From Alphaproteobacteria bacterium (GTDB lineage: Bacteria; Pseudomonadota; Alphaproteobacteria; Puniceispirillales; Puniceispirillaceae): 53,931 nucleotides of DNA. Shown one piece after another: positions 3,578 through 53,654 of this stretch. The notes under the pieces were generated by a model. It was not told the DNA's origin. It made no database searches and saw nothing but the letters and a program-made list of their open reading frames with translations. Numbering within the stretch: position 1 is the stretch's first letter; every line of letters starts with the position of its first letter. The stretch spans positions 1 through 53,931 of the forward strand of contig JABJAN010000036.1 of the NCBI GenBank assembly GCA_018666135.1. The letters run 5' to 3'. A program made the position numbers and the translations under genes.

Positions 3578-5293
3578 TTGTATTCCCGAGCAGAAATTAT
3601 AGATAGAGCGCGATGGTTAACCCATCAAAGAGTAAGTCTTTGGCTGTTAATAGTATGTGCTAGTCTTTTTATTTTGATAGGTCATGGCAATATTGATGTA
3701 ATCGACCGTGATGAAGCGCGTTTTGCTCAGGCAAGTAAGCAGATGGTTGAAACAGCAGATATAATCACTGTCAGGTTTCAAGATGAGTTACGAGCAAAAA
3801 AACCAATAGGAATTTACTGGCTACAGGCTGCTTCTGCCGCATTTTTTGGTGAAGAAGATATATCATCCTACCGTATACCAAGCTTGCTAGGCTATATTTT
3901 AAGTCTGATTTTTTGTTATCAATTTGTAAAAAGCTTATGGCCTGATTCTGGTCATTTGCAACAGCTCATCCCTACATCCTTACTTGCAAGTTGTTTTATC
4001 ATTTTAGCTGAAGCACATATTGCGAAGACTGATTCAATTTTGTTGGGCTTAATAATGATTCAACAATACTCTCTTTGGTTATTTTATAAAAATAGAGATA
4101 ATATTAATAATTCATCAGGACGCAGTTGGTTTTGGGTATCTATGGCGCTGGCTATATTAATTAAAGGACCAATTGCGCCATTATTAGCACTAATAATGCT
4201 TGCTGGATTAACACTTATAGAACGCGACTGGCGCTGGCTAAAACAGCTACGTTTTTTATTAGGTTTACTCATTATTGCGGTTATTTGCTTGCCTTGGGTG
4301 GTTGCTGTTTCAATCGCAACAGACGGTCGTTTTCTTGCTGAGGCAATATCAATCGATTTACTGCCTAAAATTACGAGTGGTCAGGAATCACATGGTGCAC
4401 CTCCAGGCACTTATTTATTAACTATCCTATTATTGATATTTCCAGTGTCTTTATTGATAGGCGCGGTTGGGAGAACAGGGGCACAATTTTGGCGCTCAGA
4501 TGCGAGTAAATTTTGTCTTATCTGGCTGGTTGGCTATTGGTTTATCATTGAATTAATTCCTACAAAATTACCGCATTATATATTACCTATGCTACCAGCT
4601 TTAATGCTTCTCATTGGCAGGGCTGTTTTTCTGCCTGTGTCATCTATAAAATGGCGTCGCATTACGGAAATAGCTATTTATGTATTCGCCAGTCTATGTG
4701 GCGCTTTTCTGGTTGCATCTAGTCTTTGGGGGGCAGCCAAATTAGGGGCAGAAAATGGCGGATATGCATTTGGTTTTGTGCTCATAATGCTTGTTCTGTT
4801 TATTGCTATTTGTTGGTTTGGATATAAATGGCTAAAGGATAAAAATTCTCATATTAACGCCAGAGGGCAATTTGCACTGGTTATTGCTATCTTTGGGATA
4901 ATGTTTAATTGCATATTTTTTTCAGGTGTCATTGGCAATTTGAAATCAGTCCATATTGCCACAATGATAGAAACAGAATTAGAAAAATTTCCTATAAAAA
5001 CTAAAATTATAGCTCTAGCAGGCTATCATGAACCTTCTGCTGTGTTTACATTGGGGCGAGATATTTTGTTAGTGTCAGAAGATGAGGCAGCTCTTTTACT
5101 AGCAGAAGCGCCTGATGCTGTGATAATTGTAGAAGCAAAAAAATTAGAACAATTTCAGTTAGGAATTCAAAAATTAGGAATTTCTGCCTATCAGCTATCC
5201 AAAGTTACTGGATTTAATATTTCAAAAGGACAATTTGTTGAATTGCATTTCTTTTCTTCGATTAAATTTGACGATAAGGATTTGAACGGCTAA
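3578..5293 (+). CDS. ArnT-like GT-C glycosyltransferase (PMT/GT39/GT83 superfamily)
   Basis: A 571-residue inner-membrane protein with about 11-13 hydrophobic segments. The first periplasmic loop carries the family motif IDRDEARFAQ (about residues 42-51), whose acidic pair is needed for catalysis in ArnT/PMT enzymes, followed by the KKPIGIYWLQA motif. Such enzymes move a sugar from a polyprenyl-phosphate carrier to lipid A, core oligosaccharide or protein on the periplasmic side. No ATG fits the frame near the N-terminus, so I take the TTG at 3578, which has AAAGAG 8 bases upstream. It heads an operon with a DPM1-like GT2 and a LAB_N protein, which would make and handle the lipid-linked donor. 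Confidence 0.87.
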   Translation: MYSRAEIIDRARWLTHQRVSLWLLIVCASLFILIGHGNIDVIDRDEARFAQASKQMVETADIITVRFQDELRAKKPIGIYWLQAASAAFFGEEDISSYRIPSLLGYILSLIFCYQFVKSLWPDSGHLQQLIPTSLLASCFIILAEAHIAKTDSILLGLIMIQQYSLWLFYKNRDNINNSSGRSWFWVSMALAILIKGPIAPLLALIMLAGLTLIERDWRWLKQLRFLLGLLIIAVICLPWVVAVSIATDGRFLAEAISIDLLPKITSGQESHGAPPGTYLLTILLLIFPVSLLIGAVGRTGAQFWRSDASKFCLIWLVGYWFIIELIPTKLPHYILPMLPALMLLIGRAVFLPVSSIKWRRITEIAIYVFASLCGAFLVASSLWGAAKLGAENGGYAFGFVLIMLVLFIAICWFGYKWLKDKNSHINARGQFALVIAIFGIMFNCIFFSGVIGNLKSVHIATMIETELEKFPIKTKIIALAGYHEPSAVFTLGRDILLVSEDEAALLLAEAPDAVIIVEAKKLEQFQLGIQKLGISAYQLSKVTGFNISKGQFVELHFFSSIKFDDKDLNG

Positions 5294-5326
5294 GACCTCT
5301 AAAACTCCGTATTATGATACCTATAT

Positions 5327-6130
5327 ATGACCCATTTTATAACAGCGCCATTAAATAATTCTCATGCTGTCTCAGCACCAGAAATTTCTGTGTTGGTTCC
5401 AGTAATGAATGAGTGCGGTAATATACGACCCCTAATTGATGAAATCTGCGATAGCTTTAAAGGCAGAGCATTTGAAATCATATATATAGATGATGGAAGT
5501 TCAGATGGGTCTGGTGCCGAATTGCTAAATGCATTGCAAGATGTTGCTGAGTTACGTGTTTTACATCATAAAAAACGCTGTGGGCAAAGTGTTGCTATTA
5601 GGACAGGCTTGCTCGCTGCGAGGGCGCCTCTAATTGCTGTGCTTGATGGTGATGGTCAGAATATTCCCTCTGACCTCCCTTTATTAGAAAAAGCTCTGCT
5701 AGCAGCCCGTCCAGAAAAAGGGATGGTAGCAGGCGTGAGACAAGGCAGAAAAGACACAGCTGCAAAGAAAATAGCCTCTCGAATGGCAAGGAAAATCAGA
5801 CTGTGGCTATTAAATGATAGCCATCCTGATTCTGGGTGTGGGATTAAAATTATTGATCGAGAAGTTTTTTTAAGGCTACCATTTTTTAATCATATGCATC
5901 GATTTATGCCAGCGCTTGTGCGACGTGAAGGCGGAGTAGTTATTCAAGCACCAGTTAGACATCGTGCACGCCAGCAAGGAAATTCAAAATATAGAATTCT
6001 AGATAGATTATTGGTTGGCATTTCTGATATCATGGGTGTTATGTGGCTACGTAAACGCACAAATCACCCAGAAGAAATCACAGAGACACTTCTAAATAAA
6101 TCAAATAAGAAGACAATTAAAAGGCAGTGA
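5327..6130 (+). CDS. GT2 glycosyltransferase, dolichol-phosphate-mannose-synthase (DPM1/ArnC) type
   Basis: A 267-residue GT-A fold enzyme that would transfer a sugar from a nucleotide-sugar to polyprenyl phosphate on the cytoplasmic face. Visible motifs are SVLVPVMNECGN (nucleotide-binding strand), YIDDGSSDGS (first acidic motif), LDGDGQN (metal-binding DxD-like motif) and the RRKQGxSKY-like HRARQQGNSKYRI stretch near residue 220. It has no C-terminal transmembrane pair, unlike ArnC, so it is a soluble or peripheral DPM1-type enzyme. It lies 33 bases after the GT-C gene and 8 bases before the LAB_N gene. The sugar cannot be read from sequence. Confidence 0.88.
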   Translation: MTHFITAPLNNSHAVSAPEISVLVPVMNECGNIRPLIDEICDSFKGRAFEIIYIDDGSSDGSGAELLNALQDVAELRVLHHKKRCGQSVAIRTGLLAARAPLIAVLDGDGQNIPSDLPLLEKALLAARPEKGMVAGVRQGRKDTAAKKIASRMARKIRLWLLNDSHPDSGCGIKIIDREVFLRLPFFNHMHRFMPALVRREGGVVIQAPVRHRARQQGNSKYRILDRLLVGISDIMGVMWLRKRTNHPEEITETLLNKSNKKTIKRQ

Positions 6131-6138
6131 TGAGTTAA

Positions 6139-6513
6139 ATGCTTGATGCAATTTCAAATATCATAGGCAGTTCGGCGTTAGCGGTTGGCGGATTACTTTA
6201 CACCTTAGCACCTTTTTTGCCTGTATCTATTGCGAATGACCCAGCAACCATAATGGTGATTGTAGGGTTTGGCGGTCAGTTCTTATTTGCTATGCGATTT
6301 ATCATTCAATGGCTTAAATCAGAGGGTAAAAAAAAATCAGTTATACCGATAGCCTTTTGGTATTTTTCAATCGGTGGCGGATTAGTGCTTTTATTCTATG
6401 CTTTATGGCGCAAAGACCCTGTTATTATTTGCGGGCAGGGATTAGGGCTATTTATCTATGCCCGAAATCTATATTTCATTCACCGTAATACTAGTAATGA
6501 TATAGCATCATAA
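6139..6513 (+). CDS. LAB_N (lipid A biosynthesis N-terminal) domain membrane protein
   Basis: A 124-residue protein with three to four membrane segments matching the LAB_N family, with the characteristic GFGGQFLFAMRFIIQW and conserved S-x-x-P-x-x-F-W-Y-F segments. In other Proteobacteria this domain is found at the N-terminus of LpxB fusions or as a separate gene beside DPM1-like and ArnT-like transferases. The rhizobial RgtF protein, needed with RgtE to make dodecaprenyl-phosphate galacturonate, is as far as I recall of this type. The position directly after the GT2 gene supports a role in making or flipping the polyprenyl-phosphate sugar. The molecular function remains inferred. Confidence 0.82.
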   Translation: MLDAISNIIGSSALAVGGLLYTLAPFLPVSIANDPATIMVIVGFGGQFLFAMRFIIQWLKSEGKKKSVIPIAFWYFSIGGGLVLLFYALWRKDPVIICGQGLGLFIYARNLYFIHRNTSNDIAS

Positions 6514-41220: not shown

Positions 41221-42714
41221 TTAGTTTCTACCCAAATAAAAGAAATAATTCCGATTTTTGTTTTTACTAATTTTTTGAGAAGAATCCCCTACCAATCCAA
41301 TCCATTCAATGCCAGTGATATCTGGCGCTTCTGGTATTTGTGTTAACGCAATGATAGGTGAAGGAGAATCTGAATTATAATTATATTTAAGTTCAAAATG
41401 ATTGCTGGGGTAGTTGTCATTATCATACACAGTTACGGAAATAGGGTTTTGGTAAAAATACCATTGTAAGTTTGCAGCTGTTACACGTCTATCTGCTATA
41501 ATTGTTTTTACATCATGCTGTTCTATGTGGTTTTGCAAATCACTGGATAATGCTTGCCAGCCTCTTACGCGCCTGAGGGGATCAGATGATGGCGCGAAGA
41601 TGCCTAGTTGACCAGTGATAACAACACTAATTAGAAATAAAGCAAGTAATGCATTTATTCCATGGGTTGCTGAGCTTAATATTTTAGAAGGAAATGAGCC
41701 AAACCACCCTGCTACAAGCAAAGTAACAGCTGGATAAGCAGCCATCGCCCAATTTGCATTTGCTTCTTGTAAATAAGCTTGGATAGAAATAATTAGAAAA
41801 ATGGGAACGCAAAATAAAAGTAAGAATAAACTATGTTTCTGCCATTTGGTGATAGCCATAAAAAAACAAACAAGGGCTAATGGGCCAAAGACAAAAATTT
41901 GTGCCTGCCAAAAATCAATTACACCCTGAAATGAATAGGATGGAAGTGTTAGATTCGCATTTTCAGATAGGTGAATAACCGTAACTAGACCATTGTTCAA
42001 ATTCCAAATAAGATTAGGCATTAAAATAATTATAGCACCAGCTAATAATGCTAGAAAACATAAAAACCGCTTTGAATAAGAGGAAACATGACCAGATAAA
42101 AGCCATAATATAGCGCATAATATAAAATATGCGCCAGCATATTTGGATAGCATGGCAAACCCTACTAAAAATCCAGCAAGTAGAAATTTGTAAGGAGATA
42201 AATGGGTGACTGTATTTGATGGGAGTATTAAATATAATGCAGAGCACCAAAATAGCACCATTGGGGTGTCAGTTGAAATAACGGCACTGCCAAGTGAAAT
42301 CGCTGGCATTAGCGCCCATAATAAGGCAGCGATTCTGCCGATTCCACCTGCCCTTGGGGTGTCATCATTCAACTGATATGCACATCGCCAAATAATAAGA
42401 GTAGTGATAAATTGCAGTAATGGTGCAAAAATCCTAACTCCAAAGGTGCTATGACCAAAAACAAAATGAGAAATACTAATAAGCCAGGCAATTAAAGGAG
42501 GTTTTGAGTAATAGCCAAAAGATAAATCCTGGCTCCAGACCCAATATTGTGCTTCATCCACACCTAGTTCAAGAGGGGTTGTGTAAATACCAAAAATACG
42601 AAGTGCAAATAGGCAAAATAACCCAAAAAGCAAAATAATATCTGCTTTCACCCAATCATAAGATGCATGTTCCATGCTTGGTTGAGTAAAGTTATTCTGG
42701 TAATGGCGCCCCAT
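41221..42714 (-). CDS. GT-C glycosyltransferase of the PMT/ArnT superfamily (second copy)
   Basis: A 497-residue inner-membrane protein with about ten or more hydrophobic helices. The first loop carries the acidic motif LGVDEAQYWVWSQDLSFGYYSKPP, whose DEAQY core equals the DEARF of the first GT-C enzyme at 3578. It would use a polyprenyl-phosphate sugar to modify lipid A, polysaccharide or protein in the periplasm. It is not in an operon with donor-synthesis genes, so it may share the donor made by the GT2/LAB_N pair at 5327-6513; that is only inference. It is divergent from sufE. Confidence 0.87.
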   Translation of the reverse strand: MGRHYQNNFTQPSMEHASYDWVKADIILLFGLFCLFALRIFGIYTTPLELGVDEAQYWVWSQDLSFGYYSKPPLIAWLISISHFVFGHSTFGVRIFAPLLQFITTLIIWRCAYQLNDDTPRAGGIGRIAALLWALMPAISLGSAVISTDTPMVLFWCSALYLILPSNTVTHLSPYKFLLAGFLVGFAMLSKYAGAYFILCAILWLLSGHVSSYSKRFLCFLALLAGAIIILMPNLIWNLNNGLVTVIHLSENANLTLPSYSFQGVIDFWQAQIFVFGPLALVCFFMAITKWQKHSLFLLLFCVPIFLIISIQAYLQEANANWAMAAYPAVTLLVAGWFGSFPSKILSSATHGINALLALFLISVVITGQLGIFAPSSDPLRRVRGWQALSSDLQNHIEQHDVKTIIADRRVTAANLQWYFYQNPISVTVYDNDNYPSNHFELKYNYNSDSPSPIIALTQIPEAPDITGIEWIGLVGDSSQKISKNKNRNYFFYLGRN

Positions 42715-48723: not shown

Positions 48724-49752
48724 TTAACTCTGATGCGTAATATTCAAAATAATGGATAGTAAGTTTTTAATAAAGGCATTCTGTGAAAATCGTTCCTCTG
48801 CCAGAGTATTTTTTGCTTTTGTCTGATACTCACCTAATTTGTTTGGGTTTCTAATTAGCATTTTTATATGAGATGCTATTTGATGGCTATCAGCAGGTTC
48901 GAAAAAAAGCGCATTTTCATCACCCTGGCAAATCCACATTGGCCCATTTGTTTTAGAAGTGACGATTGCCACGCCATATTGCATCACCTCTGGCAAAACA
49001 TAACCATATGGCTCATCTAAAGAAGGAAGACAAAAAACGTCCAAGTTAGAGGCAAATTTATTGATATCTGTCCAACCAATAAATCGAATGGGGTTTCCTT
49101 TGTTTTCAGCATATTGATGAAGGTGTTTAGATAATGGACCATCGCCTGCAAGCAAGAATTTAATTTCTGGATATTCAGAACGCACATCAGCAGCAGCATC
49201 AATAAATGACTGAAACCCTTTTTTCTCAACGAACCTGCCAGCTGCCCCTACGGTTTTTAGCTGACTTGCTCGCCCCTTGTTACTTGGCATTTCGGCTTCT
49301 GCCCTTGGCTCAAAATAATGAGGTAATAAATGAATGGTATCGCTATTTCGGCCGATATTTTTTGCCTTTTTCACCGCATTTGGTGTGAGGCAAATAAGAT
49401 GGTGTGACCCCATAAATTGCTCTGGTTTATCATTATGGCAAATACCGATTATGATATCACAATATTTTCGAATGCTGGCGCACATAAAGCCGTTATGAAC
49501 AAGACCTAAGGTAAAGGATTGTTTTTGAAGTGCGCTAATAGGTAAATAGGGCGCTCGCCTTATCAGCATTTTTTGCAGAGGGGACATTTTGATAAAACAA
49601 GTATTTGCGTAGCTGTTATCTGATGCTAATTTAGTTGGCATAAAACAAGAATTGTCAAATTCTGGAAGGTCTCCTAAAGCATCAAGATAGGCTGAAAACG
49701 CCCTTTGAATTCCTCCTGGTTTATTATCACTTGTCACATGAAGAATTTTCAT
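48724..49752 (-). CDS. GT4 family glycosyltransferase
   Basis: A 342-residue GT-B fold enzyme. The N-terminal half has the acceptor loop KPGGIQRAFSAYLDAL, the C-terminal donor half has GAAGRFVEKKGFQSFIDAA, FLLAGDGPL and the E-x7-E nucleotide-sugar motif in SLDEPYGYVLPEVMQYG. Such enzymes extend lipopolysaccharide, exopolysaccharide or lipid-linked glycans in the cytoplasm. I chose the ATG at 49752, with AGG 5 bases upstream. It lies 20 bases after the EamA transporter gene on the same strand, in the neighbourhood of the STT3 gene. Confidence 0.9.
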   Translation of the reverse strand: MKILHVTSDNKPGGIQRAFSAYLDALGDLPEFDNSCFMPTKLASDNSYANTCFIKMSPLQKMLIRRAPYLPISALQKQSFTLGLVHNGFMCASIRKYCDIIIGICHNDKPEQFMGSHHLICLTPNAVKKAKNIGRNSDTIHLLPHYFEPRAEAEMPSNKGRASQLKTVGAAGRFVEKKGFQSFIDAAADVRSEYPEIKFLLAGDGPLSKHLHQYAENKGNPIRFIGWTDINKFASNLDVFCLPSLDEPYGYVLPEVMQYGVAIVTSKTNGPMWICQGDENALFFEPADSHQIASHIKMLIRNPNKLGEYQTKAKNTLAEERFSQNAFIKNLLSIILNITHQS

Positions 49753-49772
49753 CAACCTATCCAATCTATGAT

Positions 49773-50678
49773 TTATACATATAACAGCACAAGAATGATG
49801 GAAATGCCAAGTATTGCAATGCCAGCTACTTCAAAAATAGTTATTTTCTCTTTTAGAAAAAGCCAAGAAAATAAAATTGATATTACTAATTCTATTTGCC
49901 CAACTGCTCGTACTGCCCCGAGGTGAAACATTGCAAATGCGATAAACCAAGCAGCAGAGGAAATGGCAGCTGTAATACCAATAAAGATCCCAATACGCCA
50001 ATTCTCAAGACATAGTTTTAACTGGGCTGGTTCCTTTAATAAAAGATAGGTGCCTAGGATGATGGTTTGAAACGAGATAGCGATGGCAGCAGTAAAGCTT
50101 GCATCTAACACCAAGACATCTCCACCAAGCAGCAAAGTTGCTTTGAAATAACAAATATTAGCAAGAGCTAAAGCAGATCCAGATCCAATTCCAAGAAGAT
50201 GAGAAGAGGAGAAAAATAAATGTCTTCTGCCGCCATTAGCAAATTCTATTTTCTGGTAACTAACCAAAGCAATACCCACAAGCCCGATGAGGATAGCCAT
50301 TATAAGAGAAATGCTTGCGGTATATCCAATTATTATTGCTTCTAAAATGGCTGTTTGAAGAATTTCAGTTTTTGATAAGGCAATTCCAATTGCATAATTG
50401 CGATGTTTAAACATCATGATTAGAAGAATCGTAAATGCAATCTGCAACATACCACCGCTAGCAACACTTAAAATAAATAACGCATTCATGTGAGGCAGGG
50501 AGCTATTTGTTTGAATGCAAACAGCAAAGGTCCATAGCCAGGCGAATGCAATGCCATAAATAAAGCGGCTGAAACTGGCGCCTAATTCACCTGTGCGAGG
50601 CACTAAAATCTTTTGGCAAACTGTACGTAAAGATTGTGCAGTTGCCCCGATTATAGCAAGTATAGCCCAAATTTCCAT
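49773..50678 (-). CDS. EamA/DMT family transporter
   Basis: A 301-residue integral membrane protein with ten hydrophobic helices in two five-helix halves, the drug/metabolite transporter layout. The first helix AILAIIGATAQSLRTVCQKIL and the C-terminal SILFSWLFLKEKITIFEVAGIAIL are typical (FLKE motif). The substrate is unknown; amino acids, nucleosides or undecaprenyl-linked sugars are all represented in the superfamily. It probably forms an operon with the downstream GT4 gene, which could fit a flipping role, but that is speculation. Confidence 0.87.
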   Translation of the reverse strand: MEIWAILAIIGATAQSLRTVCQKILVPRTGELGASFSRFIYGIAFAWLWTFAVCIQTNSSLPHMNALFILSVASGGMLQIAFTILLIMMFKHRNYAIGIALSKTEILQTAILEAIIIGYTASISLIMAILIGLVGIALVSYQKIEFANGGRRHLFFSSSHLLGIGSGSALALANICYFKATLLLGGDVLVLDASFTAAIAISFQTIILGTYLLLKEPAQLKLCLENWRIGIFIGITAAISSAAWFIAFAMFHLGAVRAVGQIELVISILFSWLFLKEKITIFEVAGIAILGISIILVLLYV

Positions 50679-50722: not shown

Positions 50723-50774
50723 TGATTTTCTCAGGTGATTTTCTCAGGTGAATTTTTTAGGTGATTTTCTTTTA
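50723..50774. repeat. 13-base direct tandem repeat at the 3' end of the hypothetical gene
   Basis: The unit TGATTTTCTCAGG occurs twice perfectly (50723-50735, 50736-50748), then twice in altered form (50749-50761, 50762-50774). It spans the stop codon of the minus-strand gene at 50744. A 13-base unit shifts frame, so copy-number change would alter the protein's C-terminus. Confidence 0.9.
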
Positions 50775-51367
50775 GATGTGATTGACGCACTACTTAGGTC
50801 TAGCACTCTTGATGTTTCCTGATTTTTATCTGAAATAATCTCTTTGACTACATTCCCAATATTATCTTTCACAAGATTATTTAATGTAAATTCAATAAAC
50901 TGTTTCAACTCATCCGATAGGGTTTGATTGGAGTTACTGCTTGCCAATTCCCTGTGCATTTCAGTTTTGGGTTTGATAGATGAATTACGGCTTGATATGT
51001 CCCCAGTTGCGATTGAAACAGCTTGCCTTATATCTTGCATTAGGCTGTCAACATGGGAAGGTTCAGAATGGTTTTTACTAACCTTATCTTTGTGTTTATA
51101 GTCATTTGTATCTTTAAGGGCAATTTTTTCTGATAACACAGCTATTTCTGCTTCTCTTAAAAGCAATTTTAACTGGTTTAGGTGATGCGTAATGATTAGT
51201 TTTTCTTCAAAAAGATGAGTTAGGGTAGAGATATATGTTTTATCAATTCCCAATCTTTGCAGCAACATATCGTCAATAATACCATTTTTTGAGGTTAAGG
51301 CTTCTATAGTTGCAATATTGCGCAATGATTTTAAGCTATCCAAAAGGGGGTTATTATCTCTCATCAT
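50744..51367 (-). CDS. Hypothetical protein, possibly PopZ-like
   Basis: A 207-residue soluble protein I do not recognise outright. The N-terminal third is helical (about 5-85) with LLQRLGIDKTYISTLTHLFEEKLI. A central low-complexity charged/serine region follows, and it ends with a basic tail (SKRKSPKK). Two segments recall PopZ: VDSLMQDIRQAVSIATGD (106-123), similar in spacing to the EEILASIRRIISED motif, and LSDELKQFIEFTLNNLVKD onward (150-180), similar to the C-terminal oligomerisation helices. PopZ itself normally neighbours valS, which is absent. It is divergent from the STT3 gene across 172 bases. A 13-base tandem repeat spans its 3' end. Confidence 0.6.
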   Translation of the reverse strand: MMRDNNPLLDSLKSLRNIATIEALTSKNGIIDDMLLQRLGIDKTYISTLTHLFEEKLIITHHLNQLKLLLREAEIAVLSEKIALKDTNDYKHKDKVSKNHSEPSHVDSLMQDIRQAVSIATGDISSRNSSIKPKTEMHRELASSNSNQTLSDELKQFIEFTLNNLVKDNIGNVVKEIISDKNQETSRVLDLSSASITSKRKSPKKFT

Positions 51368-51539: not shown

Positions 51540-53654
51540 ATGTCATTTCTAGCAAAGATGGTTGCTTGGCATGAAAAAATATTTGAAAATCGCTGGTTTA
51601 CGCAAAGAGTGACATTGGTAACCATTGCCCTTGCTCTTTTATTGGGCGCAGTAGCGAGCTATATGAATTTTCAAGCAAGGCACATTAATTGGCAGATGTG
51701 GACTCAAAATAAGGCAGAGTTTTTTGTAGAGGATACCCCCCTTTTTACGACAATGGATGCTGGATATTTTCTTGGCATAGCAGGCTATCTAAAATCAGGT
51801 AAAACGGTAGAAGATTATCAAGCTCTTCGGGTATATCCTGAAAACCTGAATGAAAATCAACCTCTCAATACGCAAAGTAGGTCAGCACCCTTATTATCAA
51901 AAACCATTGCTTATTTTGCCGAAGATGCCTCGCCACAATCTTTGCTCACAGCTGGCAATAAAATTCTTCCCTACACAGCTGTGATAACAGTAATTGCAAT
52001 ATTTATAGCATTTGCGGTGACTGGCTACTGGATGGAAGCATCGGTTGCAGCAGCGGGAGGCGGCTTATCTCTTGCTTATTATTGGCGCTCGTCTATGGGC
52101 AGAATAGATACAGATCAGCTGAATCTGGGTTTTATGTATTTTATGTTTGCTATGGTTATGTGCGCTGGTAAGGCAAAAAACGTAAAATATGGCTTATTAT
52201 TTACAATTATTGCAGGGATTACAGCACATTTATTCATGTATTGGTATGGCAAAGCTGAACTAATCATAATGGCTGCAATCGCATTATTCTGGTTACTGCT
52301 TGTCCTTTCACGAGATTGGCGACGGTATTTAGGGTTTACTATCCTATTTCTTCTGATTTCAGGCGTTGGTTTAATAAATCCATTTGATTCAATATATCTT
52401 CGAACGGGTCTGGATTTTGATAATTTTATTTTTAGTAATGTGATTTCGACTGTTACAGAAGCATCACGCGTGGATATTATGGAAATTTTCTATAGGATGA
52501 CGGGTTCTGTTTTGATTAGCGTGATGTGTGTTTTTGGGATCTTATTATGGGCTTTCTGTCATCCAGTCATGGCAGTGGCATATGCCCCACTTGCTGGATT
52601 TTTTGTACTAAACATGTTTATTGGAAACAGAGCTGCTTTTTATTCTGCTCCTTTTTTCTGGTTTGGCGCAGCCTATTTAGCAGTGCTAGTAACCAAAATG
52701 ATTATTTATCAAGTTTCAGCCCAATTTGAGAACTCCAAACATTTTATCACCAGTATTCTATCTCCTGCAGCATCGTTTGGGGTATGCGCGATATTACTTA
52801 TATTAGTGTGGCTTGCAGGACCAGCCTATCAGCTTGCAAAACCATCTATTCCAGCCCCTGTAATTAAGGCGATGCTCTTTTTAAATCAGACAGAGATACA
52901 ATCAGAGAAAAGTGTTGTTGCTAGCTGGTGGGATTATGGATATGCCTCTATGTTGTTTAATAATCTGCCAACATTCACCGACCCTGGCTCACATGGGGGT
53001 AAATCAAATTATTTTATTGCAGACGCGTTATTAGCAGATAATCAAGCATATACCGCTGATATACTTCGTTTTCTTGCCCGTGGCGGTCTGGATAGCTTAG
53101 ATATGGCGGTTGCTAATAGCTCTGAGCTTAGAAAAAAAATCCTTGCTGATAGAAGCAAGCAAGCGCCAGCAGTATATTTTATGCTTACAGATCAGATGAC
53201 AAGTTGGATGCCCTCTATATCAAAAATAGGAAAGTGGGATATTGATTTAGGGGCGCCCATGCGGATTGAGGGTAATAATTTAGGTCAGCCTCTCTCTTAT
53301 AATTTTGTTTCCTGTGCTGATACAACCACACCTGGAATTGTAAGATGTAATAATTCGCCAGTAGATTTAAGAGAGGGTATGATAGATAACAAACCTGTTT
53401 TAAGTATGGTAAGTGAAACACGGGGAGGTAGATTTTTTGGGGGCAAACGCTTCAGAGATAATGCCTTAAATATGGTGCAAATCATGAAAGATAGTGAAGG
53501 AAAATCAACAAGAGTGGCTATTTTGCATAAAGAGCTTTTTTTAAGTAGCTATAATCAGATGTTTCATTTAGGCAGGTTTGATACTAAAAACTTTAAATTA
53601 ATATATGACGGATATCCATTTGTTCGAATTTTTAAACTTCTCCCTGCATCCTAA
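51540..53654 (+). CDS. STT3/PglB-type oligosaccharyltransferase
   Basis: A 704-residue GT-C enzyme with about 13 transmembrane helices and a C-terminal periplasmic domain, the layout and length of PglB. All catalytic landmarks can be found. D73 in TTMDAGYF is the first-loop acidic residue, D190-T-D192 is the second acidic motif, and T304-V-T-E307 matches the external-loop TIxE motif. The acceptor-binding W463-W-D-Y-G467 follows. Such enzymes transfer a lipid-linked oligosaccharide to asparagine in D/E-x-N-x-S/T or N-x-S/T sequons in the periplasm. Lipid-linked glycan genes (pglC-, pglK-like) are not seen. A GGGGG run precedes the ATG. Such genes are uncommon in Alphaproteobacteria to my knowledge. 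Confidence 0.93.
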   Translation: MSFLAKMVAWHEKIFENRWFTQRVTLVTIALALLLGAVASYMNFQARHINWQMWTQNKAEFFVEDTPLFTTMDAGYFLGIAGYLKSGKTVEDYQALRVYPENLNENQPLNTQSRSAPLLSKTIAYFAEDASPQSLLTAGNKILPYTAVITVIAIFIAFAVTGYWMEASVAAAGGGLSLAYYWRSSMGRIDTDQLNLGFMYFMFAMVMCAGKAKNVKYGLLFTIIAGITAHLFMYWYGKAELIIMAAIALFWLLLVLSRDWRRYLGFTILFLLISGVGLINPFDSIYLRTGLDFDNFIFSNVISTVTEASRVDIMEIFYRMTGSVLISVMCVFGILLWAFCHPVMAVAYAPLAGFFVLNMFIGNRAAFYSAPFFWFGAAYLAVLVTKMIIYQVSAQFENSKHFITSILSPAASFGVCAILLILVWLAGPAYQLAKPSIPAPVIKAMLFLNQTEIQSEKSVVASWWDYGYASMLFNNLPTFTDPGSHGGKSNYFIADALLADNQAYTADILRFLARGGLDSLDMAVANSSELRKKILADRSKQAPAVYFMLTDQMTSWMPSISKIGKWDIDLGAPMRIEGNNLGQPLSYNFVSCADTTTPGIVRCNNSPVDLREGMIDNKPVLSMVSETRGGRFFGGKRFRDNALNMVQIMKDSEGKSTRVAILHKELFLSSYNQMFHLGRFDTKNFKLIYDGYPFVRIFKLLPAS

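Follow-up and report, generated by a model that had tools for sequence, protein, structure and literature searches.

The gene at positions 51540..53654 (+ strand) of the window, the whole 53,931-nt stretch of alphaproteobacterial DNA analysed here, very probably encodes an intact single-subunit oligosaccharyltransferase (OST) of the STT3/AglB/PglB family, an enzyme class that we regard as strongly supported (ORF, Pfam, PDB match, alignment and model). We further consider it likely, with a probability of roughly three in four, that this STT3 protein is an active N-oligosaccharyltransferase with a full WecA-primed N-glycosylation route, its activity, donor structure, sequon and flippase being predictions from sequence. 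N-glycosylation is the best reading because an intact STT3-family OST and the start of a polyprenyl-linked glycan route occur in the same genome.

The open reading frame begins with ATG, contains no internal stops and specifies 704 aa, the same length as Campylobacter PglB; together with the OST fold of the predicted structure, this uninterrupted frame bears out, well beyond chance, the full-length STT3/PglB of the earlier note. The protein matches the Pfam STT3-PglB_core model (E = 2.8e-13, 51 bits, cut-off 23), and its only sequence matches in the PDB are the PglBs of C. jejuni and C. lari (E = 1e-10 to 2e-11); the NCBIfam PglB equivalog model NF050801 gives 67.5 bits, below its cut-off of 1300. 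In an alignment of 45 diverse bacterial OSTs (the window protein and 44 others, at 18–64% identity), 14 residues are invariant in 45/45 sequences, namely R47, D73, R183, D190, D192, E307, R364, P371, W463, W464, D465, G467, G483 and Y546. D73, the first-loop acid of the metal site (51756..51758), corresponds to D54 of Campylobacter PglB, the second DXD motif D190-T191-D192 (52107..52115) to D152/D154, the TIXE motif T304-V-T-E307 (52449..52460) to T313-E316, the invariant arginine R364 (52629..52631) to R372 and the W463-W-D-Y-G467 motif (52926..52940) to W457-G461, all of these features lying on the + strand. The acidic residues, the TIXE and the WWDYG named in the earlier note are thus exactly where it had placed them. 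By alignment, all the metal-site acids of the STT3/AglB/PglB family (first-loop D, second DXD and the E of TIXE/SVSE) are present, and the metal site is predicted to consist of D73, D190, D192 and E307. Over 23 STT3 proteins of SAR116 (Puniceispirillales), mean column identity is 42%, and the catalytic residues are invariant.

The AlphaFold model of the protein, built on the 45-sequence alignment (mean pLDDT 92.6, pTM 0.91), contains a multi-TM GT-C domain and a C-terminal globular domain with the OST fold. Its best Foldseek match is the C. lari PglB complex with peptide and lipid donor (TM 0.70), followed by yeast and human STT3/OSTs and A. fulgidus AglB; OSTs account for all of the first 21 PDB matches, and other GT-C enzymes score lower. 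The SAR116 enzyme shares fold and catalytic logic with Archaeoglobus AglB and eukaryotic STT3 (Foldseek E ~1e-8 to 5e-11), whereas identity to them is 12–14% and they have a DK motif and a Lys-type pocket (PMC3703281); a SAR116 STT3 profile barely detected eukaryotic STT3 (E = 4e-5 to 9e-4) and did not detect AglB by sequence. Compared with Campylobacter PglB (C. lari 5ogl/3rce/6gxc, C. jejuni 3aag), which is likewise a single-subunit OST of the same fold and length with the D/DXD/TIXE/R/WWDYG residues in common, the window protein shows ~18–20% identity, belongs to a separate clade and carries a first-loop R97-x-x-P100 element that is absent from Campylobacteria.

The acceptor pocket also differs. 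Two kinds of +2 Ser/Thr pocket have been published, a Lys type (DK motif) and an Ile type (MI motif, MxxIxxx(I/V/W)), and all PglBs were stated to be of the MI kind (PMC3703281). The window protein instead has M553xxW556xxxI560 (53196..53219, + strand), a Trp-type variant of the pocket motif, so that Campylobacter MxxI is replaced by MxxW. Three observations support the register of W556: conserved residues nearby, an independent hhalign profile-profile alignment (probability 100, E = 3e-49) and its position on model helix 552–564, at the site expected for the kinked helix. At the key pocket position, Trp occurs in all 26 SAR116 sequences, Ile in 40/40 sequences from Campylobacteria and Lys in 23 of the 25 other bacterial OSTs, so that SAR116 enzymes bear a third, clade-specific pocket residue beside the Ile and Lys types. 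The non-Campylobacteria OSTs (L040, L042, L043, L047-L064, L070, L078 and L088), with Lys at this position in 23 of 25 sequences, indicate that Lys-type enzymes are widespread in bacteria other than Campylobacteria, contrary to the published all-Ile statement. The DGGK motif of Campylobacter PglB is not kept either: the window protein reads D481-P-G-S, and the clade has DGGxQ/H or DPGxQ/H, mostly DGGxQ. The claim that every PglB landmark is retained accordingly stands for the metal acids, TIXE and WWDYG but fails for the MI motif and DGGK.

R319 (52494..52496, + strand) occupies, also by hhalign, the alignment position of the minus-2 arginine (R328 in C. bilis, R331 in C. lari), a residue found in 9/26 SAR116 proteins, 40/40 Campylobacteria and 1/25 other bacteria. 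With R319 retained, an acidic residue at −2 might be favoured by the enzyme in the window's genus, which is a weak suggestion. According to published work, the minus-2 arginine alone does not decide the minus-2 rule (PMC4894442). The Desulfovibrio PglBs (DgPglB, DdPglB, DvPglB), which have no strict minus-2 acidic rule and were active in E. coli tests (PMC4894442), serve as a model for the SAR116 enzymes that do not have this arginine; they do not figure in the 80 loci that our genome scan retained.

Since the pocket is altered, there is room for a changed sequon. On the most far-reaching interpretation, W556 would remodel the +2 site and the SAR116 proteins would form a third, Trp-type OST class with an order-wide altered sequon (for instance a marked choice between Ser and Thr, or a different residue at +2) and a separate, WecA/Wzy_C-fed marine N-glycosylation system; we advance this tentatively, at somewhat less than even odds. 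Alternatively, the pocket Trp might reflect a changed acceptor, the protein being an STT3-descended GT-C transferase that acts on something other than asparagine (Ser/Thr, lipid or lipopolysaccharide). Such a transferase would accommodate both the presence of W556 in place of the Ile or Lys used by all characterised OSTs and the O-antigen-type genes, such as Wzy_C, that lie beside STT3 in some genera, but we consider it unlikely, given the invariance of WWDYG, TIXE and the metal-site acids, the features by which sequon binding and transfer to asparagine are defined, and given that the closest folds are N-OSTs, with the GT-C enzymes ArnT, AftA, Pmt4 and DPY19, which use other acceptors, scoring far lower in Foldseek.

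In a maximum-likelihood tree of 65 OSTs, all of them bacterial (midpoint-rooted), the SAR116 STT3 proteins form one clade (100/100), within which family f3 splits off first, then f2, then f1, in agreement with the taxonomy. The tree proposed as a check in the earlier note places Campylobacter PglB far outside this clade, the sister of which comprises enzymes from Nitrospirota (Magnetobacterium), Desulfurellales/Hippea and a 'Deltaproteobacteria' MAG (join 95/94). These sister OSTs (Nitrospirota, Desulfurellia/Hippea, 'Deltaproteobacteria NP72'; ~20–25% identity) share the RxxP element with SAR116, but in place of the SAR116 Trp their pocket is mostly of the Lys type ([ML]xxK), and the papers that we found describe no characterised member of the Nitrospirota/Desulfurellia type.

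Ten neighbouring genes occur in the same order in three other genomes of the window's genus, so the STT3 gene belongs to the SAR116 chromosome. The order ETF-QO, TPR protein, IspE, STT3 is preserved in members of three SAR116 families; we rejected this neighbourhood as a functional operon and take it, as a housekeeping context, for evidence of shared ancestry only. A recent horizontal transfer from Campylobacterota, or a contaminated metagenome-assembled genome (MAG), could be read from the fact that the best PDB matches are Campylobacter PglBs, but this hardly credible origin is rejected by the tree and the synteny, that is, by the fully supported clade with its taxonomic internal order, by the genus-wide synteny and the ancestral IspE-STT3 order across families, and by the presence of the gene in closed isolate genomes. 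The pattern fits a single ancestral acquisition in the order, followed by vertical inheritance, with the gene moved elsewhere in some genera and lost from others.

The STT3 gene lies on contig G000:C112 of the host MAG (G000; 1.77 Mb, 134 contigs, ~92% complete). Within Puniceispirillales, STT3 was detected in 37/136 genomes, in 18/43 good genomes and in 15 of the 20 genera, and the carriers include the cultured isolates Ca. Puniceispirillum marinum IMCC1322 (PMC3368413) and LSUCC0684 (PMC12262181); a closed 2.6-Mb SAR116 genome (G022) does not have the gene. STT3 is therefore no isolated oddity: a large part of the order has inherited it, and cultured isolates have it too. Another genome of the window's genus (G006, 92% complete) has WecA-type and Wzy_C genes and no STT3 match. 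At one locus (L119, G012:C37:4572-6754), in a genome scored as 100% complete, STT3 is in two overlapping frames of 239 and 495 aa, which is a frameshift or an assembly error.

A class-wide scan of 385 alphaproteobacterial genomes yielded PF21436 matches in 3, all from the window's own family (f1), and the SAR116 STT3 profile recovered from the same genomes those 3 plus one distant protein, L178. N-glycosylation as a class-wide trait of Alphaproteobacteria is accordingly rejected, the matches being nearly confined to family f1 among the 385 genomes. L178 (positions 67-2571, G075, from another alphaproteobacterial family) is an 834-aa GT-C protein that matches Pfam STT3 (PF02516) with 41 bits and has the elements HDSYY, DDD, AELTEP and GWWDVGHW; judging by these, it appears to be a second STT3-like protein, of very divergent sequence, from outside SAR116 but within the Alphaproteobacteria.

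Campylobacter pglB lies inside a pgl cluster, whereas no such cluster (initiating transferase, glycosyltransferases and flippase together) was found in the 53,931-nt window, as the earlier note had observed. Just upstream of STT3, on the opposite strand, are a 207-aa protein of unknown family (50744..51367, − strand; Pfam search, synteny) that is conserved next to STT3 in the genus, an EamA-family membrane protein of 301 aa (49773..50678, − strand; Pfam EamA, E = 4.7e-14), a speculative flippase candidate, and a GT4 glycosyltransferase of 346 aa (48724..49764, − strand; Pfam Glycos_transf_1, E = 1.7e-26), a candidate glycan-building enzyme. This arrangement is common to three congeneric genomes; the EamA protein shows 74–76% identity within the genus and ~40% in genera g5 and g10, where it is also near STT3. 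Farther away in the window, a 571-aa membrane protein that matches nothing in Pfam at 1e-4 stands in a row with a GT2 (PF00535) and a LAB_N protein (3578-6513), a set that resembles lipid A or polyprenyl-phosphate-sugar modification genes, and a PMT_2 protein is encoded at 41221-42714.

The search of the whole genome for an initiating transferase and a flippase, suggested in the earlier note, succeeded for the former. G000 contains, in addition to MraY, a second, WecA-type gene (PF00953); no PglC-type transferase (PF02397) was found in this genome. The WecA-type gene is in two pieces, the C-terminal part at the end of contig C21 and the N-terminal part at the end of contig C120. Since the two parts overlap by 46 identical aa and between them account for nearly the full length of the 354-aa WecA in a sister genome, the gene appears to have been broken by the assembly rather than by a mutation. 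Next to the WecA-type gene in G000 is a Wzy_C gene of the O-antigen ligase/polymerase family.

In other SAR116 genera, such genes are linked to STT3 itself. The gene order in G032 is epimerase-STT3-WecA; Wzy_C adjoins STT3 in G010 and G036 and, in genera g2 and g10, adjoins it or lies ~4 kb off; in G025, Wzy_C and an epimerase are ~3–4 kb from STT3; and a GalE-like epimerase adjoins STT3 in genera g3, g5 and g11 and is within ~3 kb of it in g10. The case for a lipid-linked glycan donor rests mainly on this linkage to WecA, Wzy_C and epimerase genes, and the earlier view that the donor must come from elsewhere gives way to WecA-type and Wzy_C genes that are in the genome and, in other genera, next to STT3. 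Among 39 good genomes, no association was found between STT3 and an extra initiating transferase (15/18 vs. 16/21, p = 0.70) or Wzy_C (14/18 vs. 12/21, p = 0.31), perhaps due to O-antigen synthesis drawing on the same genes; with co-occurrence not significant, the pathway argument rests on gene linkage.

Neither a Wzx-type flippase (PF01943, PF13440) nor Wzt_C (PF14524) was found in G000 (92% complete, 134 contigs), and across the genus a single PF01943 match was obtained, in G009; weak PF13440 matches of 520–540 aa were rejected as Wzx because they look like MurJ. An MsbA-like ABC gene at G000:C15, itself a possible flippase gene, lies beside apparent lipid A genes and is probably MsbA. The EamA protein and an ABC transporter are, speculatively, the flippase candidates. 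Thus, of the N-glycosylation pathway in a small-genome alphaproteobacterium that the earlier note had implied, the intact OST and the WecA-type start are present, but Wzx and Wzt_C were not found in this genome, which leaves the known route incomplete. The failure to find a flippase, along with the lack of the gene in many SAR116 genomes and the known hydrolytic side activity of OSTs (PMC8342417), might be taken to point to an enzyme that mainly hydrolyses lipid-linked glycan to free oligosaccharide, or to a vestigial one that has no working donor pathway; a full-length frame with catalytic residues and acceptor-binding motifs kept over deep divergence makes this quite improbable.

For the favoured reading, an active N-oligosaccharyltransferase, the following route can be proposed. 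The WecA-type transferase would put HexNAc-1-phosphate on undecaprenyl phosphate, GT4-type enzymes would lengthen the lipid-linked glycan and a flippase, for which the neighbouring EamA protein and an ABC transporter are candidates, would turn it to the periplasm. STT3 would then move the glycan to a periplasmic asparagine in an N-X-S/T-like sequon, the +2 residue being held, presumably, by WWD plus W556. The undecaprenyl-diphosphate glycan would probably be shared with surface polysaccharide synthesis.

SAR116 bacteria belong to the abundant heterotrophs of surface seawater. The open-access comparative-genomics papers on SAR116 whose text was searched mention neither oligosaccharyltransferases nor glycosylation, and the open-access literature on PglB or oligosaccharyltransferases in alphaproteobacteria and on SAR116 glycosylation, the scope of our search, does not describe SAR116 STT3. 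The gene itself must already be in public databases, as Ca. P. marinum IMCC1322 was reportedly sequenced in 2010. If the OST is functional, N-glycosylation would extend to a major alphaproteobacterial order, glycoproteins would be a surface trait facing phages and grazers, and glycoengineering would gain a naturally occurring OST whose acceptor pocket is of the Trp type. N-glycosylation is worth looking for in SAR116, and it can be tested directly, since STT3 is present in cultured isolates and absent from a closed SAR116 genome. TPR-sulfotransferase genes lie near STT3 in several SAR116 genomes (f2, g8; L022:3-1466, L124:15153-16970), and their products possibly sulfate surface glycans or proteins.
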